A stretch of DNA of 64,000 bases from assembly GCF_900115125.1 (NCBI RefSeq), contig NZ_FOVJ01000001.1, positions 529,852 to 593,851 on the forward strand. Reading direction: 5' to 3'. This stretch comes from Nitrosospira briensis. Lineage in GTDB: Bacteria; Pseudomonadota; Gammaproteobacteria; Burkholderiales; Nitrosomonadaceae. The notes under the pieces are model-generated. The model searched no databases. It was not told the DNA's origin and was given only the letters and a program-made list of their open reading frames with translations. Position 1 is the stretch's first letter. Every line of letters begins with the position of its first letter. Positions 1-11,552 of this stretch are shown here, one piece after another. The position numbers and the translations under genes are program-made.

Positions 1-280
1 TCACGCCAAAATGGCGCGCAATGGCGCCGCAGGGCGCGTTGGCCAGGCACCACGGAAACAGTTCGGGGCTGGCTAGCGCGGGACCAACCTGGGCTGCATC
101 AGCCCAGAACTTGACCGAGGTGGCCGCACCGGCATTTGATGACGCCACTATAAGGCAGGTGCGATGTCGCGGTACGCCGGAGTCGAATAATGGCACCAGG
201 CGAGGGGTAATCGAAGCAATGAGTTCGCGCTCCAGACCCCAGTCCAGCATGGATAGATGGTGCATGTCGAGATATATCAT
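1..280 (-). CDS. Ketoacyl-synthase-like protein, partial (runs off the left edge)
   Basis: An open frame starts with ATG at 280 and stays open to the window edge, giving 93 residues. The ATG overlaps the stop of the upstream ketoacyl synthase as ATGA (277-280), so the two are translationally coupled. The visible C-terminal part reads LFPWCLANAPCGAIARHFG, which resembles the stretch just before the nucleophile in ketoacyl-synthase-like proteins that act as partners or chain-length factors of a full synthase. The catalytic region lies outside the window, so it cannot be said whether this copy is active. The position, last of five overlapping genes, suggests it works with the neighbouring synthase and acyl carrier protein. 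The frame is certain, the family moderately so. Confidence 0.6.
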   Translation of the reverse strand, partial: MIYLDMHHLSMLDWGLERELIASITPRLVPLFDSGVPRHRTCLIVASSNAGAATSVKFWADAAQVGPALASPELFPWCLANAPCGAIARHFGV

Positions 281-1434
281 CCCTCCCATGCGCGAAGCAG
301 TAGCGCAGAATTGAGCCCGCCGAAGGCGAAAGCATTGTTCATCACCCAGCGCAGGCGGCTTGGCCGGGGTTCAGGGGTACAGGCGATACCGCCCTCTATT
401 TCCGGTTGTTCATGCCCCGGAGTCGGAGGCACTGTCTGTGTCAACAGTCCTTGAACGCACAGCGCAAGCTCAATCGCGGAGGCTGCGCCCAACGCATGCC
501 CAAGTGCACCCTTGCTACCGCTTACGGGCGGCAGGCCGGCGCTGAACAACTCATGCAGAGCCTTGGCCTCAGCTGCGTCCGAGGCCCGCGTGCCAGTCCC
601 GTGGGCGTTTACCCAGTCAATCTGTGCCGGCGTGATGCCAGCTATTGTGAGCGCCGCCTGCATCGCGGCCCGCATACCGGTCCCCTGCGGTTGCGGTGCG
701 GTAGGATGGAACGCGTCGCAGGACAGGCCAAGGGAAACCACTTCTGCCAGGGGTTCGATGCCGCGCTGCAAGGCATCGTCCGCGCGCTCCAGAACGAACA
801 TCGCAGCGCCTTCGCCTAGTATCATTCCGTTGCGGCGCACATCAAAAGGGCGACAGGCATCCGATGCCATTGCCCGCGCCCGGCTGAAGCCCACCATGGA
901 TAACCGCGAGAAAGGTTCAACCCCGCCTGCAAGGGCCACTGGAACCTGGCCGCTGCGCAAGGCAGCAAAAGCCGTACCTACCGCGTAATTACCTGCCGCG
1001 CAGGCAGTGGCCAATGACTGCTGTGGCCCGGTAAGACCAAAATGGGCACGCACGCCATCGGTGAACGAAGGCGCCATATAATCGGCAAGGTTTATCGCAT
1101 CGTCCGACGGCGTCCGCTCGAACGCTTCGCTCTCGCCGAGGGTGCTACCGATGTACACCCCAGTCCGCGCCGGGGGTAGCGGCAAGCCTGCATGGCCCAA
1201 GGATTGTCTGGCAGCGGCAAGCGCAAGCGAGCGTCCCCGCCGCAGGGGTTCGGCCGTAAAAGATTCTATTCGGCAGGCACGCGTGCAACGATAGCCGTCT
1301 GCGGCAAGGTCTGGCCATTCGCGTAACGCAGACTCTCCAGCCAGCAGGCGCTGCCACAATTCCGACGGCGAATCGCCCAATGGCGTCATAACGCCCATGC
1401 CGGTTATCACCACCCGAACGGCGGGCTCGCTCAT
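277..1434 (-). CDS. Beta-ketoacyl-ACP synthase (FabF-like)
   Basis: 385 residues, slightly shorter than FabF (about 412). It condenses an acyl chain with malonyl-ACP in a fatty-acid or polyketide-type pathway. The thiolase-fold catalytic set is complete: nucleophile Cys145 in ATACAAGN, His278 in NAHGTGT, and Lys308 with His313 in GSKGALGHALGAA. The N-terminus has the usual VVITGMGVMTPLG opening. The ATG overlaps the stop of the acyl-carrier gene (ATGA), and its own stop overlaps the next gene the same way. The setting beside an acyl carrier protein and two proteases, not fabD/fabG, argues for a dedicated secondary role rather than housekeeping fatty-acid synthesis. The product is unknown. Confidence 0.9.
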   Translation of the reverse strand: MSEPAVRVVITGMGVMTPLGDSPSELWQRLLAGESALREWPDLAADGYRCTRACRIESFTAEPLRRGRSLALAAARQSLGHAGLPLPPARTGVYIGSTLGESEAFERTPSDDAINLADYMAPSFTDGVRAHFGLTGPQQSLATACAAGNYAVGTAFAALRSGQVPVALAGGVEPFSRLSMVGFSRARAMASDACRPFDVRRNGMILGEGAAMFVLERADDALQRGIEPLAEVVSLGLSCDAFHPTAPQPQGTGMRAAMQAALTIAGITPAQIDWVNAHGTGTRASDAAEAKALHELFSAGLPPVSGSKGALGHALGAASAIELALCVQGLLTQTVPPTPGHEQPEIEGGIACTPEPRPSRLRWVMNNAFAFGGLNSALLLRAWEG

Positions 1435-1700
1435 ATCGATACTCTGGCGAAGATATAACGTACGGTGGCTTCAAGCGAGACAAACTCTGGTAGATCCTGA
1501 TCGGGGATGATCAGAGCGTAGCGCCGCTCGATACGTGCCACCAGTTCGACGAGATCCAGTGAATCCAGCAGCAGATCGGTTCGAAAGTTGGCCTGAACCG
1601 GTAGAGTCGGGGGTAGCGTTGGCCGGATCGCCCGTAATTCGGAGCGCAGGAACGAGAGTACTTGGTCGTCATTCATTCGCGCGGTGGTGGGTTCGCTCAT
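1431..1700 (-). CDS. Acyl carrier protein
   Basis: An 89-residue protein starting MSEPTTARMN. The phosphopantetheine attachment site is Ser47 in the LLLDSLDLVEL motif, followed by the helix expected in carrier proteins. It would carry acyl intermediates for the ketoacyl synthase directly downstream. The start at 1700 forms an ATGA overlap with the stop of the peptidase gene; an internal ATG at 1676 (MNDDQ) is a possible alternative. A longer open frame extends upstream to 1883 but is arginine-rich and lies inside the peptidase gene, so it was not used. Length and motif are typical of the family; pathway assignment is not possible from sequence. Confidence 0.88.
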   Translation of the reverse strand: MSEPTTARMNDDQVLSFLRSELRAIRPTLPPTLPVQANFRTDLLLDSLDLVELVARIERRYALIIPDQDLPEFVSLEATVRYIFARVSI

Positions 1701-2665
1701 GGGTAGACAGGCACCGCAGCCGCACGGGCGACCGCAAGGCATTCGCTCGCCAGCGGAGCGAGTGGATCGCCTATAAGCCGGTACGATTCCCATGCGCGTG
1801 CTACGGGCGGCGCGCCACGCACAATCAGCTCTCCGATCGTCTGGGCGCCGGTACGAAGGGCATCGCACAGGCCGAGAGCCCACCGTGTGTTATCCGTATG
1901 TAGAGTATCGCTGAACGCGCCAAAACTGGCTGCCGCCACCCCCCGCAAGGGCACGGCCTCCGCAAAGGACAGGCTGGTGCGTTGACGGCTGGCGGTGCGG
2001 CAGCACAACGAAATCAATGCACCGAGAGGCTCACCGGCCCAAGCGTCAAAATGATGCCTACGGGTTCCATGGTAACCAACCCAGCCGACTGGCCGGCCGT
2101 GGCCCACATATAGTCCTAGCCCGAGGCCGCTGCCGAGAGCCTGCACCATATCTTCCCGCCCAATCACGTCAGCCGTCCAGCGCAAGGTGGGCATCTGGTC
2201 GCAGAGCAGGGTTTCAATTCTGTCAGTTACACGCAGGTAGCGTGGGTGCCATTGGCCCAGCAGGGCCACTGCAACCTGCTGGGCAGGACGCCGATGCACC
2301 CTCGCAGCCGTAGCCGCAAAGCGCCGGTTTTCATCCGGGGTGCGCAGTGGTAACCAGGCAACCGGCACACGCCGGCCGTTCCTGTCCTCCACAAACGGAC
2401 CCGGAAGTACGGTTGAAGGGGCGCGCCGGCTGGACCCCGCAATTAACACAGCCTCAGCCGATCCCAACTTGTTCAAAAGGCAACGCGCATCAGGGGGAGG
2501 CCCGACATGGCAAGCAATCGTGACACGTACATGGCGCGCGCGCCACGCCTGAACCAACTCATTGAAGTAGGGTAGTTGCTGGGAGGGTATGGAAAAAATC
2601 AGGTGCTGTTCAGGCAACTTGCGGATTCGACTGGACGAACGTGGCAAATTTCTGCCACGGGGCAT
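1697..2665 (-). CDS. C25 (gingipain-like) caspase-fold cysteine peptidase
   Basis: 322 residues as drawn. The pattern is that of family C25: a GHG motif with the presumed catalytic His189, then about 30 residues later SLCC with the presumed nucleophile Cys221 or Cys222, a FAEA segment, a glycine/alanine-rich strand, and the C-terminal LIGDP seen in many C25 members. No signal peptide or transmembrane segment is visible, so it is probably cytoplasmic, unlike secreted gingipains. The ATG at 2665 overlaps the upstream gene by 56 bases; a TTG at 2617 would give an 8-base overlap closer to the 4-base overlaps in the rest of the operon, so the true start may be there. The target is unknown; the co-encoded repeat protein is an obvious candidate substrate (inference). 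Confidence 0.72.
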   Translation of the reverse strand: MPRGRNLPRSSSRIRKLPEQHLIFSIPSQQLPYFNELVQAWRARHVRVTIACHVGPPPDARCLLNKLGSAEAVLIAGSSRRAPSTVLPGPFVEDRNGRRVPVAWLPLRTPDENRRFAATAARVHRRPAQQVAVALLGQWHPRYLRVTDRIETLLCDQMPTLRWTADVIGREDMVQALGSGLGLGLYVGHGRPVGWVGYHGTRRHHFDAWAGEPLGALISLCCRTASRQRTSLSFAEAVPLRGVAAASFGAFSDTLHTDNTRWALGLCDALRTGAQTIGELIVRGAPPVARAWESYRLIGDPLAPLASECLAVARAAAVPVYP

Positions 2666-5600
2666 ACTGTGTTTCGGTCTGGCTCAGCAGCACGCGGCGG
2701 GTGAAGTAATGCATCATGATTTGTCCCTGCTGTTCTGGGGTAAAGTCCATGAAGTCGGCCGCCGGGTCTTCGAGCACGTCAGCGGCACCTTCACCGGTCA
2801 TGAAGCCGGCGCCATTGCTGTTCTCGGCGTTGCCGGCATAATCGGCATTTGGAACGCTGATGGCGGGATCGCCAGTGTTGTAGCCATAATTATAGGCGGC
2901 CTCCTGGCCAAGCGTGACCTGGCTGAAGACTGCATGTCCCATGTAGATCGGGCCCACATTCTGGTTTTGCCATACATGCGTCATTTCGTGGATGAACTGA
3001 TATCGCTTTATCGGTCCTTCGTCGGCATCGAAATTTATCAGGTTGCCGGTTACGAAAGCACGTGACTCCGGATTGCCGGTGAAAAAATCCTGGATGCCGA
3101 AAATGATGTCATTCGTCGGCGTGTCCGTGGCAATAAAGACATTGTCGAGATCCACCGAATCCGCGAATACCAGTTGCGCATCAGCGCGCTCTGGTTCGGT
3201 AAGGTGACGGAAGCCGTTCAGAAGGTTCATCAGCAGGAATACGACAGTATCGAGCAATCCCACCGCCACCTCAAGCACGGCCAGCAGCATGGCCTTGGCT
3301 TGCTCGCCGATGGCGATCATGGTGCGTACAAATTCATCGATGAATTCCTCGCCGGCTTGCCTGAAAGCGTCGAATACCTGATTCAGCGTCTGTCCTAACT
3401 GGCGCGCGGCACGCATGAGATTTTCCATCGCCTGGTCAGGATGCTTCACAGTTTCCACAACCAGTTCAACAAGAGTGGCGCCAGCCTCCAGTGCGCCTCT
3501 TACCACTTCCAGCGTGATCTCGAACGCCTTGCCCGCCGTCCATACTACCAGTCGGGCTAACTCGAAACCTGCACGTAATGCGCCAGTGATGAATTTGGCA
3601 ATGCCGGGAATGAAGTCGGTTGCCAGATAGTTGAGAGCATAGTCAATGGAATTACCTATCCGTTCCCACATCCCTCCCAGTATGTCGAGCGCGTCCTCGC
3701 CACGGGCGATGGCCCAGTCGATAATCTCTGTAACCGCAGCGCCCACGTCTTCGCACAGTTGCACAATCCGTTCCATTACTGCCTGCGCCTGGGTGGACGC
3801 CCAATCAAGCAGTTCAGTAATGCTCTTTTTCACGAAGCGTATTGCGAGGACCGCTTCACGCCACAGGGCCGAGGCCAGCGCCTCCCCCCGCTCGAGCAAC
3901 CACCCCAAGATGTCGCCTACGGGACCAAGCGCCTGCAACACTGCGTTGATGATTTTACGGAACACAAAATAACTGGCTGTAACAACGGCTTCAAGAATGT
4001 CGACGACCTTGGCGCCCACTTCCAGCGCGGCTTCAACCAGCCGGGCTGCCACTTTATAAGTAAACGCGACCATTTGCCCGGTAAATTCAACGATAGTCTT
4101 GCCCAGGGCGAACGCGGCCTTGACCACTTCTTTCAGCAGGTTCATTGCCAGGCTCAAGGTTTCCTTGAGCAGGTTCAGAAGGGATTTGCCCAGCGCGAAG
4201 AATGCTTGCACCACTTTCCGGATGGCCGTCAGCGCGTGGGTGGCAAGTGTCTCGACAATATCGACCAGCAGTTTGCCTACCTCGAGCAGGCCTTGCAGTA
4301 CCTTGGTTACAGCGTCTGCGGCCGCGGTGGCGATGAACTTGGTGAATTCTATCAGCGCTTGGCCCGCCTTGACTGCTGCGCGCACAATCTCGGTGATCAG
4401 ATCGAGCCCGGCATTGACAGCATCGCTGATAATGCTGGCCAGACTCCGACCCAGAGACAGGAGTGCCGAAATAACCGAATCGAATATCGCCCAGGGGCGG
4501 GTGACGAGCGTGGCCAAAATTTCGCCCACTGCCTTGCCCAGTTCGATAAAAGCCTTTACGAAACCCTCCACCAGTGTGACGCCGAACTCCACCGCTTGCT
4601 GAAGGATATTGCCAATCGTTTTGCCTATTGCCAGGAGCGCTTCAGCACCTCTCTTGATAATGTCGAACGTCTTGCTGGCCATCCAGGACAGTAATTCGCC
4701 AAGTTGACGGCCGAGGTTGTCAATTGCCTTGAGCACGGTGATGAGTGCATCCTTGGCAAGGTTAAACGCGGCGTCGAGCACGTTGAACAATCCCTGTCCG
4801 ATTGCCTCCAATCCTGCGATTATCTTTTTGACAAGTTCGTAGCCAGTCTCGAGTGCCGCCTGAAGGAGATCAAGTACGGTCTGGCCAGCCGTGATCAGTG
4901 CCTTGAGCAGGTTGGCAATGTCGTTGGCAACCCAGTTCGCCACATCTGCCAGTGCCTGGCCCAGCGTTTTAACCGCCGACACGACCGCATCGACGACCGA
5001 GTTAATTGCGCTGACAATCTCGTCGGCGATATCCTCGAAAAAATCGACCACGGCAGCATCGGTGTCAGGAGGGGAGGGCGGGCGGCCGTGCTGCATGCGC
5101 GTGATATCGGCGCCGGCGTCACGAAGCCAGTACAGTACTTCGCGCAGTGAACCCTTATCGACCGATTTATCAGGTTTGAGTACGAAGTCGTGCATCAGGA
5201 CCCTTCCTTGTGCACGAGGCAACTGACCGATGGCGTGCACGACACCGCGCGCCTGACCTGCGCGCTTGTAACCTTCGATCAAGGTTTTTCGTTCTACGCC
5301 TGTCATTGCCGCGGCTTGCTGAAACAACTCCCGGTGCTGCAGGGGATCGCTGATCGATTCCGCATACGCTTCAGCCAGCCAGGCACCCATGCTGCGATCA
5401 CGTTTGCATATCGCCTGGAAAGCGGGGGCAAGCTCCACCGAGGTATGCGGTATCTTGCTGATTGCCGCGTTAAGCGCAGACTTATTGGATAAGGATACGT
5501 GATCCAGTGCGCGCAGGAGCCGATTCCAGCCGGGGGACTGGAGAACTGCTCGGCGTGAATGAGGCGGAGCCGCGCGAGCGGAGTCGCGGGCGTTTGCCCG

Positions 5601-5795
5601 ACGCGGTTTTGTACCGGTTTTTAGATGAGGCTTAGCCGTTTGAGATGGCTCAGCCTCTTTTTTAGGGGGGGAAGCGGTTTTGGTTCTTCGACGGGACGGG
5701 GGGGATGCCTCTGCGGACTCTTCTTCGGTGGGTTCCTGGTCTTTTGTACTGCGCTTGGGTTCAGCTTTGCCACGAGGAGTCTTCGGGGTAGCCAT
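2610..5795 (-). CDS. Giant 29-residue-repeat protein with C-terminal zinc-protease motif
   Basis: 1061 residues, not assigned to a named family. Residues 1-85 are basic, proline-rich and disordered. Residues 85-240 are a globular helical region. From about 255 the protein is a long run of amphipathic helices in units of exactly 29 residues: the glycine of a [LIVA]-G-[KRQ] motif recurs at 304, 333, 362, 391, 420, 449, 478, 507, 536, 565 and 594, and the pattern reappears between about 750 and 860. A hydrophobic helix follows. The C-terminal 180 residues form a zincin-like domain with HEMTH at 936-940. The repeats suggest a membrane- or lipid-binding rod, or a pore (inference). It is the first gene of a run of overlapping genes with the C25 peptidase, ACP and ketoacyl synthases. 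There is no signal peptide. Confidence 0.8.
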   Translation of the reverse strand: MATPKTPRGKAEPKRSTKDQEPTEEESAEASPPSRRRTKTASPPKKEAEPSQTAKPHLKTGTKPRRANARDSARAAPPHSRRAVLQSPGWNRLLRALDHVSLSNKSALNAAISKIPHTSVELAPAFQAICKRDRSMGAWLAEAYAESISDPLQHRELFQQAAAMTGVERKTLIEGYKRAGQARGVVHAIGQLPRAQGRVLMHDFVLKPDKSVDKGSLREVLYWLRDAGADITRMQHGRPPSPPDTDAAVVDFFEDIADEIVSAINSVVDAVVSAVKTLGQALADVANWVANDIANLLKALITAGQTVLDLLQAALETGYELVKKIIAGLEAIGQGLFNVLDAAFNLAKDALITVLKAIDNLGRQLGELLSWMASKTFDIIKRGAEALLAIGKTIGNILQQAVEFGVTLVEGFVKAFIELGKAVGEILATLVTRPWAIFDSVISALLSLGRSLASIISDAVNAGLDLITEIVRAAVKAGQALIEFTKFIATAAADAVTKVLQGLLEVGKLLVDIVETLATHALTAIRKVVQAFFALGKSLLNLLKETLSLAMNLLKEVVKAAFALGKTIVEFTGQMVAFTYKVAARLVEAALEVGAKVVDILEAVVTASYFVFRKIINAVLQALGPVGDILGWLLERGEALASALWREAVLAIRFVKKSITELLDWASTQAQAVMERIVQLCEDVGAAVTEIIDWAIARGEDALDILGGMWERIGNSIDYALNYLATDFIPGIAKFITGALRAGFELARLVVWTAGKAFEITLEVVRGALEAGATLVELVVETVKHPDQAMENLMRAARQLGQTLNQVFDAFRQAGEEFIDEFVRTMIAIGEQAKAMLLAVLEVAVGLLDTVVFLLMNLLNGFRHLTEPERADAQLVFADSVDLDNVFIATDTPTNDIIFGIQDFFTGNPESRAFVTGNLINFDADEGPIKRYQFIHEMTHVWQNQNVGPIYMGHAVFSQVTLGQEAAYNYGYNTGDPAISVPNADYAGNAENSNGAGFMTGEGAADVLEDPAADFMDFTPEQQGQIMMHYFTRRVLLSQTETQYAPWQKFATFVQSNPQVA

Positions 5796-6097
5796 GGCGC
5801 GAGATTATCCTTATACCGATGGATTTACGAAAAGGCAGCGTGTTTTCGGCGAAGCTATCACACCTCAAGGCTTGGCGCAAGCGCTAATTTCGTGCGGTAT
5901 TTGCTGAATAGCCAGGGCACAGTCGGGACTTATTGCAGCGCTTTTTTAATTCGGCATGGCTGATAATTGCCCCTGAAGGGACATTATGTCCATTTAACGA
6001 TAACCATCAGATCAAGTTGCGTGCCATAAGCGAGTTTCTCTCTTGCCTTTGTGGGCCCATATCGAGCTTCCCGGGTTGATTGAGTTACGTTGCAGGC
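5796..6097. other. Intergenic, promoter region of the repeat-protein operon presumed
   Basis: About 300 bases separate the start of the repeat-protein gene from the stop of the upstream histidine kinase, both on the minus strand. No gene, tRNA or strong hairpin was seen. A weak AAGGA ribosome site lies about 12 bases before the ATG at 5795. No promoter could be named with confidence. Confidence 0.4.
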
Positions 6098-7807
6098 CTA
6101 ACCTTCAGTGCCGAATTCTTCGTTTTTACTTCCTGCCGTTCGAAGTTCGGGGGCAGCATCCGACATCAGTTCGAACCAGAACACGCTGCCTACGCCAACC
6201 GTGCTTTCCACGCCGATTTCGCCTCCCATCAGTTCGATCAGTTGCTTTGTCACCACCAGGCCAATACCTGTGCCTTCTACCGAGCCGGCTTCCTGGCCAA
6301 GCCGATTGAATTGCTGAAAAAGCTGCGTCAGTTTTTCCGGGGGCAATCCTGTTCCTGTATCCCTGACACTGACCCGGATACGCTCAGGTGCAATCATGTC
6401 ACAGGTGACTTCAACAGTACCGCCCTCGCGGTTGTATTTGATTGCGTTTGACAGAAGATTGATCAGGACCTGTTTCACCCGCGTTCGATCGGCTTTAACA
6501 AAGAAATGCATGTCCGCCGGGGGAAAGATCAGTTGAATGCCATGCTCCTGAGCTTGCGGTTCGACCATCGTCCGGGATTCGACCATGACCTCACCCAGGC
6601 ACATAGGTTCCTGCGACACGATGAGCTTGCCCGATTCGATGGTGGCGAGATCAAGGATTTTATTGATCAATTCCAGTAGATACCACCCTGCAGCATTAAT
6701 CTCCTTGAGCATGGTCATTTGCGTGAATGTGGGCGGCGGCGTGCTCGACTCCATCAACTGGGAAAAACCAAGCATGACATTGAGAGGGGAGCGCAATTCG
6801 TGGCTCATGCTGGAAAGGAATTCCGATTTCGCAAAATTGGCCTTTTCCGCGTCCGTCTTGGCTTTGGTGAGTTCTGTTTCAATCAGCTTGCGTTCAGCAA
6901 TATCGCGGCGCAATTCCGCGTTTACCCTCGCTAGCTCATCTGTGCGCTTTGCCACCAGTTCCTCCAGGCGATAGCGGTGTTCCCGCAATTCCGCTTCCGC
7001 CTGCTTGCTTTCGGTAATGTCGACCAGGATACCCTGAAGGAACAGTGAACGCCCCGACTCGTCGTGTACCACGCTCGCTTCATCGCGAAACCATAAAACT
7101 GTTCCACCATGGGAAAGCAGCCGGTATTCACAACGCAAGGGGGCTCCGGTTGCGCGACTCTTTGCGCGTTCCTCAAGTGTGCGCTGCCGGTCGTCTGGGT
7201 GAGTCCGGGCAAGGAGGACGTCGGGATCGTTCAGCCATTGCTCCGGAGGAAACCCGAGCATTTCGATTCGGGAGCTGACGTAAAGGAAGCGGTTGGTGCC
7301 ATCCAGTGCAGCGATATAAACGATGGCCGGAATTGTCTCGACCAACGAGCGATATTTAGCCTCTGCCTGGGCCAGCTTATCTTCCGCGAGTTTCTTTTCC
7401 GTCAACATGCGGCGTTCGCTCAGCACGCGCTGGATAACGGCGGGCAGCAGTTCAAGGTACTGATGCTCTACATCCTTGATCAGGTAATCCCTGGCGCCAC
7501 GCTTCATCGCCTCTACCGCGATTGTGGCGTTGTCTGTGCCTGTGAGCATCATCACGGGTATGGAAACCGCACCGGTATCATCTGTCAACGCAGCCAGGAA
7601 CTCCAGCCCATTGAGGTCCGGCAAGTGATAGTCGAGCAGAACACAATCCGGTTGCTGCTCATGAGCGAGTTGTAACCCCTCCTGTCCGGATTCCGCTTCG
7701 GAAAGCAGGAATTCGTAGTCCAGGTTCCGCGCCAGGGCGCGACGGCACGCCATGCGATCCACAGCATCGTCTTCGACAAGGAGTACGCGAATCAGTGGTT
7801 TGGACAT
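6098..7807 (-). CDS. Histidine kinase with N-terminal receiver and PAS domain
   Basis: 569 residues, with no transmembrane segment. Order of domains: receiver (1-125) with phosphoacceptor Asp59 and conserved Lys111; PAS/PAC (about 150-270) ending DITESKQAE; coiled coil (275-320); dimerisation domain with phosphorylated His336 in SSMSHELRSPLN; and an ATPase domain (430-545) with LLSNAIKYN, DTGTGLP and GTGIGL boxes. This is a soluble kinase that can itself be controlled by phosphotransfer to its receiver. It is followed upstream by a lone response regulator and a membrane kinase on the same strand, suggesting a phosphorelay. No DNA-binding output is present in the cluster, so the target is unclear. 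Confidence 0.9.
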   Translation of the reverse strand: MSKPLIRVLLVEDDAVDRMACRRALARNLDYEFLLSEAESGQEGLQLAHEQQPDCVLLDYHLPDLNGLEFLAALTDDTGAVSIPVMMLTGTDNATIAVEAMKRGARDYLIKDVEHQYLELLPAVIQRVLSERRMLTEKKLAEDKLAQAEAKYRSLVETIPAIVYIAALDGTNRFLYVSSRIEMLGFPPEQWLNDPDVLLARTHPDDRQRTLEERAKSRATGAPLRCEYRLLSHGGTVLWFRDEASVVHDESGRSLFLQGILVDITESKQAEAELREHRYRLEELVAKRTDELARVNAELRRDIAERKLIETELTKAKTDAEKANFAKSEFLSSMSHELRSPLNVMLGFSQLMESSTPPPTFTQMTMLKEINAAGWYLLELINKILDLATIESGKLIVSQEPMCLGEVMVESRTMVEPQAQEHGIQLIFPPADMHFFVKADRTRVKQVLINLLSNAIKYNREGGTVEVTCDMIAPERIRVSVRDTGTGLPPEKLTQLFQQFNRLGQEAGSVEGTGIGLVVTKQLIELMGGEIGVESTVGVGSVFWFELMSDAAPELRTAGSKNEEFGTEG

Positions 7808-11233: not shown

Positions 11234-11463
11234 GCGTTGGGAAGCGTAATTCCATATACCTGAATGAATTTTGATTGGCTCCGCCGGACGTATGGCAAGC
11301 GCACCTGCTTCTTGTGTCGTCCCTCCTTCCTTTACCTAGCTCTTGTGTCCGTCGATTCGGCCAGCCTGGACCAGGATGAGGAAGAGTTACCGTGAACATC
11401 GGGTAGCTGAACATATATCCGGTTTTCCTTACTTCGGGTTACAATTAACCGTTCAGATCAATT

Positions 11464-11552
11464 GCCCGGATGGTGAAATTGGTAGACACAAGGGACTTAA
11501 AATCCCTCGGGCTTAATCGCCCATGCCGGTTCGATTCCGGCTCCGGGCACCA
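11464..11552 (+). tRNA. tRNA-Leu(UAA)
   Basis: The acceptor arm GCCCGGA (11464-11470) pairs with TCCGGGC (11542-11548). The discriminator A and an encoded CCA follow. The anticodon stem AGGGA/TCCCT encloses the loop CTTAAAA with anticodon UAA. A long variable arm and a T-arm with GGTTCGATTCC are present, as expected for a class II leucine tRNA. It marks the downstream border of the minus-strand injection-system locus, 45 bases from the stop of its last gene. Confidence 0.96.

Follow-up and report, generated by a model that had tools for sequence, protein, structure and literature searches.

Which kind of system do five overlapping genes at the left end of a 64,000-nucleotide stretch of the Nitrosospira briensis genome encode? 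The stretch (hereafter the window) comprises bases 529852-593851 of contig C10, forward strand, and coordinates are window positions unless a locus is named. The genes encode a long repeat protein ending in a zincin-type metallopeptidase domain, a C25 peptidase, an acyl carrier protein (ACP), a beta-ketoacyl synthase (KAS) and a half-length protein resembling a ketosynthase (KS), here called the partner. An initial annotation, made from the window's sequence, had called them an operon matching no described system, and in the openly licensed PubMed Central (PMC) literature we likewise found no description of such a gene set. We find that the five genes recur as a unit in distant bacteria and regard them as a new kind of system built from known parts. 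Our tentative reading, which may well be wrong, is a mobile five-gene cell-death or defence device around the long amphipathic metallopeptidase protein, with a gasdermin/caspase-like logic realized by unrelated parts.

The five genes recur as a unit

A search for the C25 peptidase in 369 genomes of the class returned four matches: N. briensis, genome G147 (51% identity, full operon, locus L007) and two weak matches outside such operons. The latter were rejected as divergent members after inspection of the frames by eye, L005 being an ordinary large C25-type frame and L006 lying antisense to another gene. Two peptide patterns, which are narrow and may therefore miss divergent members, were also run against 84,980 species genomes. 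This yielded five loci in metagenome-assembled genomes (MAGs): one each from Thiotrichales (L010), Sphingobacteriales (L009), a gammaproteobacterium (L011, hereafter HKST), Helicobacteraceae (L012) and an actinomycete (L013). L010 is identical to L007. The five loci besides that of N. briensis carry MAG labels of Gammaproteobacteria (two), Sphingobacteriales, Helicobacteraceae and Actinomycetota and range in G+C content from 0.40 to 0.68; host labels are those of the MAGs, and the contigs of L007, L012 and L013 are only 6-8 kb long.

All five genes are present in identical order in L007, L009, L011 and L012; in L012 the contig edge truncates the repeat gene at its 5' end. L013 carries the genes for the repeat protein, the C25 peptidase and the ACP, followed by the beginning of the KAS gene, within which the contig ends, before the position of the partner. 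The synteny expected by the initial annotation is thus seen in all five other loci, as far as each contig reaches, and the KAS and ACP genes stand together with the protease genes in 6/6 loci.

Further copies of the C25 peptidase are rare. Only N. briensis was recovered from 398 genomes of the phylum (profile search) and from 100 genomes of the family (single protein), and only the genome of L009 from the 247 genomes around it (profile search). A profile of the N-terminal domain of the repeat protein found N. briensis and G147 alone among 274 genomes of the class. Among the genomes sampled, this type of C25 peptidase was seen only in the operon.

We compared L007 and L011 at fourfold degenerate sites, where agreement is near saturation: 30, 24, 36, 35 and 31% for the repeat protein, C25, ACP, KAS and partner genes (427, 126, 22, 169 and 51 sites). 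The encoded proteins are 86, 65, 62, 68 and 48% identical in the same order. By this comparison all five genes are under purifying selection, which is strongest on the repeat protein. Because the gene order recurs in five other loci and the proteins are kept despite near-saturated fourfold sites, the set is more than a chance neighbourhood.

The block appears mobile and was probably lost in two relatives

Trees of the five proteins share two splits, {N. briensis, Sphingobacteriales} and {Thiotrichales, HKST}. Support by the Shimodaira-Hasegawa-like approximate likelihood-ratio test for the repeat protein, C25, ACP, KAS and partner is 100, 98.6, 75.3, 99.2 and 96.3 for the first split, and 100, 95.8, 84.9, 99.4 and 98.6 for the second; each tree holds only five or six sequences, and the actinomycete is placed in the C25 tree with a support of 13.1. 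The N. briensis copy groups with the Bacteroidota-labelled copy and not with the two other gammaproteobacterial copies. Since this common topology does not follow taxonomy, the five genes appear to move as one block between distant bacteria.

The block is absent from the corresponding site in 5/5 same-genus relatives that were fetched (of 22 searched besides N. briensis), and none of the five has a C25 match. Similarity to the relatives stops 24-27 bases inside the start of the UdgX gene and resumes at N. briensis 6099-6166, leaving 358-648 unaligned bases in the relatives vs about 6.66 kb in N. briensis. At the empty site, G048 and G058 hold a 72-75-base match of 80% to the repeat gene (E=5.5e-14 and 2.3e-12; L046:1670-1744 and L048:about 11245-11315). 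Read as a relic of loss, this remnant suggests that the block is probably older in the genus and was lost in those two relatives. The block is intact in distant bacteria, yet it is rare and the host genus has lost it at least once; its function presumably requires all five parts.

Gene layout

As first described, the five genes lie on one strand with overlapping ends (Table 1), and the fifth, followed leftwards past the window edge, ends 383 bases beyond position 1 (L002:12470-13141, of which L002:12470-12852 lies outside). ATGA overlaps had been given for three of the four junctions; they are present at C25/ACP and ACP/KAS, and at KAS/partner only when the second ATG (280) is taken as the start, ATG 289 giving a 13-base overlap. 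The overlap between the repeat and C25 genes, annotated as 8 or 56 bases, follows from the choice of start (TTG 2617 or ATG 2665), and TTG 2647 would give 38. The operon-like unit initially proposed is supported.

Table 1. Features of the window discussed in the text.
Feature	Positions	Strand	Size	Basis or remarks
Gene 1, repeat/zincin protein	5795-2610	-	1061 aa	
Gene 2, C25 (gingipain-like, caspase-fold) peptidase	2665-1697	-	322 aa from ATG 2665	PF01364; gingipain R2 alignment; alignment of six
Gene 3, acyl carrier protein	1700-1431	-	89 aa	PF00550 (on longer frame); start set by ATGA overlap; alignment of five
Gene 4, beta-ketoacyl synthase (KAS)	1434-277	-	385 aa	PF00109 and PF02801 above cut-off; alignment of five
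Gene 5, half-length KS-like partner without catalytic Cys	289-1, then leftwards out of the window	-	223 aa	
Block absent in relatives	window part 1-6098; whole about -563 to 6098			between UdgX and a histidine kinase gene
tRNA-Leu	11464-11552			adjoins start of eCIS locus
Extracellular contractile injection system (eCIS) locus	11597-39207	-		same strand as the block; sheath, tube, baseplate, AAA and three eCIS_core proteins

UdgX, the next gene leftwards (154 bases from gene 5), is part of the genus background. The G+C content is 0.620 in the stretch from the partner through KAS and ACP to C25, 0.564 in the repeat gene, and 0.548 and 0.521 in the flanks. No sixth gene was recognised within the block; two antisense frames (5625-5963 and 5680-5907, plus strand) were taken as spurious and have no Pfam match above cut-off. 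Counts of promoter-like sites (3 vs 2.7 in shuffles) and terminator-like sites (2 vs 6.4 in shuffles) were uninformative.

The repeat protein carries a VgrG2b-related domain

From the alignment, the N. briensis protein comprises a basic-acidic low-complexity tail (residues 1-88), a conserved N-domain (89-245), a 29-residue amphipathic helical repeat extending over about 21 unit lengths (246-860) and a C-terminal metallopeptidase domain related to that of VgrG2b (861-1061). In the autocorrelation of the repeat, lag 29 is best in five of the six proteins, far above shuffles, and lags 87, 58 and 29 are nearly tied in L013; a 33-residue period guessed by eye was ruled out by this analysis. The hydrophobic period of 3.62-3.64 corresponds to eight turns per 29 residues. 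With 12 units profiled per protein, Gly occupies position 12 in 65 of 72 units, Lys or Arg position 13 in 65% and Asp or Glu position 17 in 68%; the later units of the N. briensis protein appear less regular. On a helical wheel, apolar or small residues occupy the arc between about -90 and +110 degrees and polar ones the remainder, giving an apolar face of about 200 degrees.

Could such a protein set a length, like the tape measure of a phage or an eCIS, being cut by the C25 peptidase and carrying the metallopeptidase as its tip? The repeat region measures 615-617 residues in 6/6 proteins, with two one-residue gaps. In four of the six, the secondary peaks that accompany lag 29 include 11 and 18, and an excerpt of PMC3271669 discusses a mixed spacing of 11-11-18 in tape measures. 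PHROG tape-measure families match the repeat region (best 5.5e-17), as does the tape measure PDB 6v8i (6.8e-7), and none of ten proteins scanned from the window's eCIS has a tape-measure match. However, phasin, tape-measure and other helical families all match the region, at differing places, so that composition may explain them, and we read these matches as a possible sign of common amphipathic-helix character. Moreover, no tail genes were apparent by eye next to any of the other five loci, three of the six carriers are without eCIS_core, and the KS and ACP are left unexplained. We therefore consider a length-setting rod very improbable.

The initial annotation had noted HEMTH in the repeat protein as a zincin motif. 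It stands at 936-940, HExTH is kept in all six proteins, and the metallopeptidase assignment can be refined to kinship with the VgrG2b effector domain (PDB 6h56; profile E=1.2e-12), with HExxH and an EQQGDI(V) motif aligned. Single sequences also match this domain, at 6.6e-5 for N. briensis and 2.1e-6 for L007. The zincin comes in two types: in its tree, a branch of length 1.10 (support 100) separates the proteins of Thiotrichales, HKST and Helicobacteraceae from the others, whereas the same split has a branch of 0.06 (support 70.8) in the N-domain tree and is absent from the repeat tree. This difference suggests exchange of the C-terminal domain.

Zincin matches were found in 8 of 185 genomes of the class, six of them outside the operon in frames of 174-669 aa. 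At one place (G144:C9:139613-139834), Pfam eCIS_core coincides with a match of the operon zincin profile (E=8.4e-4), a hint of distant kinship between the two domains.

The C25 peptidase keeps a gingipain-like catalytic pair

PF01364 (cut-off 23 bits) is above cut-off in 5/6 peptidases: N. briensis (32.4 bits), L007 (30.9), L009 (25.7), L011 (27.9) and L012 (37.7), with L013 at 22.9. The proteins are about 310-326 aa long, with no additional domain matched. The C25 core was aligned to gingipain R2 (E=0.0003), and His189 and Cys222 fall on gingipain residues that we take to be catalytic. Both residues are invariant in all six proteins. Cys221, annotated together with Cys222 as a candidate, is Ser or Thr in two of them, which makes Cys222 the likelier nucleophile.

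Acyl-chain genes and a cysteine-less partner

The catalytic residues annotated in the KAS (Cys145, His278, Lys308 and His313) and the ACP (Ser47, in DSLD) are complete and invariant in the five aligned sequences of each, and the ACP of L013 also has DSLD. The nearest solved chains to the KAS are 9s5h_B and then 6kxd_A, a ketosynthase, and the AmcF model matches it below cut-off (240.5 of 325 bits). The KAS is 40% identical to a KS of a Photobacterium plasmid and a KS of genome G108. Each of these is followed by a KS-like frame of 324-337 aa, and by eye the surroundings resemble a type II polyketide synthase (PKS) cluster. The two clusters are the nearest non-operon relatives of the KAS and the partner among those found; by eye, L024:7971-10207 (Photobacterium plasmid) and L072:2760-5078 (G108) hold the KS and KS-like pair with reductase, dehydratase and KAS III genes.

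The fifth gene had been called synthase-like, and this kinship stands in a weak form with two corrections: the protein is half-length (130-229 aa in the five seen) and, in alignments read by eye, has Gly, Ser, Pro, Glu or Ala where the catalytic Cys would be. Pfam ketoacyl-synt is above cut-off in one of the five members (L007), below it in N. briensis and unmatched in L009, L011 and L012. The resemblance covers the active-site region and the part preceding it; a profile matches KS structures in PDB at 6.1e-6, and profile-profile comparison gives a probability of 68.7% (E=4.5e-5). Partner matches occur in 46 of 185 genomes of the class; those not belonging to the two operon loci reach 2.3e-12 at best and lie mostly in frames at least as large as a complete KS. 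AmcG was rejected as an identity for the partner, this NCBIfam family having no match in the five members.

The three genes could instead serve biosynthesis or storage, with the KS, half-KS and ACP making a polyketide or unusual fatty acid, the repeat protein acting as a lipid-binding scaffold or a phasin- or perilipin-like coat, and the peptidases doing the processing. Pfam Phasin_2 is above cut-off in four of the five repeat proteins scanned (N. briensis, L007, L009 and L011, with L013 below). The KS and partner resemble the KS/short-KS neighbours of the PKS-like clusters, and AmcF needs a Cys-less partner in cispentacin synthesis, as part of PMC10698177 reports. Yet the phasin match may be compositional, like those of the other helical families; the block has no tailoring or release enzyme; and such a role would not account for the pairing of a VgrG2b-type domain with a C25 protease. 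A biosynthetic or storage role is thus unlikely in our estimate.

Neighbouring injection system and possible delivery

The window also holds an eCIS locus. The stretch between it and the block is largely conserved in the relatives, in which the eCIS was not matched (N. briensis sequence compared to 16000), and no direct repeat of the tRNA-Leu 3' end was found elsewhere in the window. The eCIS locus looks like a separate acquisition. Carriers of the block have eCIS_core in 3/6 cases, one of them weak, vs 14 of 185 genomes of the class (N. briensis included), a hint at most. We rejected the five genes as a component or cargo of the eCIS: genus-conserved genes lie between, the relatives show neither element here, and carriers are not regularly eCIS-positive. 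Delivery by a type VI secretion system (T6SS) was also rejected, the sheath family being found in one of six carriers, N. briensis only, where some carriers are incomplete MAGs. The sheath gene in question is G000:C14:16912-17820 (VipB family, E=3e-137).

These data bear on whether the repeat protein is a toxin exported against other cells, lipidated through the KS and ACP in the manner of repeats-in-toxin (RTX) proteins or class IV CdiA, with the C25 peptidase freeing the metallopeptidase and an eCIS, T6SS or other machine delivering it. The VgrG2b kinship fits such a toxin, the presence of both an eCIS and a T6SS sheath gene in N. briensis would offer a route, and two zincin types suggest C-terminal exchange as in polymorphic toxins. 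Against these points, the block contains no convincing candidate for an immunity gene, no HlyC/CdiC-type acyltransferase is among the family matches, conserved genus genes separate block and eCIS, and neither machine is regular among carriers. On balance, an exported toxin seems doubtful.

Of the initial suggestion of a toxin, defence or surface system, the toxin-like content stands, in the form of the VgrG2b-related domain. A surface role is not favoured, since no signal peptide was seen by eye and, of the two secretion machines looked for (eCIS and T6SS), neither is common to the carriers.

Plasmids gave no match for the C25 peptidase, N-domain, zincin or partner; the KAS matches 1289 plasmid records, all at <60% identity. 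In viral contigs, searched for the C25 peptidase only, one pattern match was found and was not confirmed. Upstream of the HKST operon lie a HELVH frame without Pfam match (L011:4647-5729, plus strand) and a HEAT-repeat frame (5578-6420, plus strand).

A possible mechanism

We return to the self-directed device. The main reason to prefer it over a toxin for others is the lack of an immunity gene in the block, and we also count for it the recurrence of the unit, the 29-residue amphipathic period, the VgrG2b kinship and a protease encoded beside its presumed substrate. The VgrG2b domain is described as harmless in the Escherichia coli cytoplasm, toxic in the periplasm and countered by a periplasmic immunity protein in the available part of PMC6899460.

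In such a device, the KS, its Cys-less half partner and the ACP would form a minimal type II polyketide or fatty-acid synthase making one particular ACP-bound chain, with the starter, the extender and any reducing steps drawn from the host. The chain may be attached to, or bound by, the repeat protein and tune its membrane association. On a signal, the cytoplasmic C25 protease would cut the repeat protein, and the helical repeats would enter or cross the cytoplasmic membrane, exposing the VgrG2b-type domain on the far side, where it could harm the producer cell's own envelope. More speculatively, the C25 enzyme might act as a PorU-like transpeptidase and supply the transfer step. That the block represents a new class in this full sense, a fixed-length amphipathic rod with a metallopeptidase, primed by a chain that its own KS, half-KS and ACP build and triggered by a caspase-fold protease of the cytoplasm, is something to which we give little credence.

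Several observations weigh against the device. Of the five proteins, the repeat protein evolves most slowly (86% vs 48-68% identity between L007 and L011), which is unusual for a toxin. One carrier is an actinomycete, provided that its binning is correct, and would lack a Gram-negative periplasm. The block holds no acyltransferase, thioesterase, ketoreductase or ligase gene. A comparison of seven proteins with known defence proteins (PADLOC) gave one weak match only, to ZorA2 in the repeat region (E=0.0039), and no defence islands were visible by eye around the loci.

If the acyl chain and both proteases do act on the repeat protein, the block would link polyketide or fatty-acid synthesis to proteolytic activation, a link we did not find described. 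The operon is compact, and natural relatives lacking the block could serve as controls.

Comparison with known systems

The zincin of the block is related by profile and aligned motifs to the T6SS effector VgrG2b, but is fused to a helical repeat protein and not to a VgrG spike, without an adjoining immunity gene found and with a T6SS sheath in only one carrier. The idea of a toxin made competent by a chain from acyl-ACP is shared with RTX/HlyC and class IV CdiA/CdiC (PMC3034196 and PMC8510554, each in part). In the block, by contrast, KS and ACP are encoded on the spot, acylation is putative, and the proteins have no HlyC/CdiC-family match, RTX nonapeptides or filamentous haemagglutinin repeats (Pfam, NCBIfam).

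In bacterial gasdermin systems a caspase-like protease adjoins a palmitoylated pore-former, according to sections of PMC9079055, and in the block, too, a caspase-fold protease is encoded beside a presumed membrane-active protein. The repeat protein, however, has no gasdermin match in Pfam or NCBIfam, the protease is of the C25 type, and a KS and ACP are dedicated to the system. A KS with a Cys-less partner and an ACP recalls the KS and chain length factor of type II PKS and AmcF-AmcG of cispentacin synthesis, but the partner is far shorter, has no AmcG match and is accompanied by no ligase, ketoreductase, dehydratase or release gene. The GHG...C catalytic core is that of gingipains and of PorU, a proposed C25 sortase joining proteins to anionic lipopolysaccharide (A-LPS) in the part of PMC4560394 available; the C25 peptidase of the block differs in its small size, the lack of any added domain matched and its weak match to PorU (E=0.11). 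RTX/CdiC toxins, gasdermin systems, T6SS effectors, eCIS parts and the listed defence systems each have at least one defining feature for which the block was tested and which it does not show, and we therefore file it as a new kind of system.

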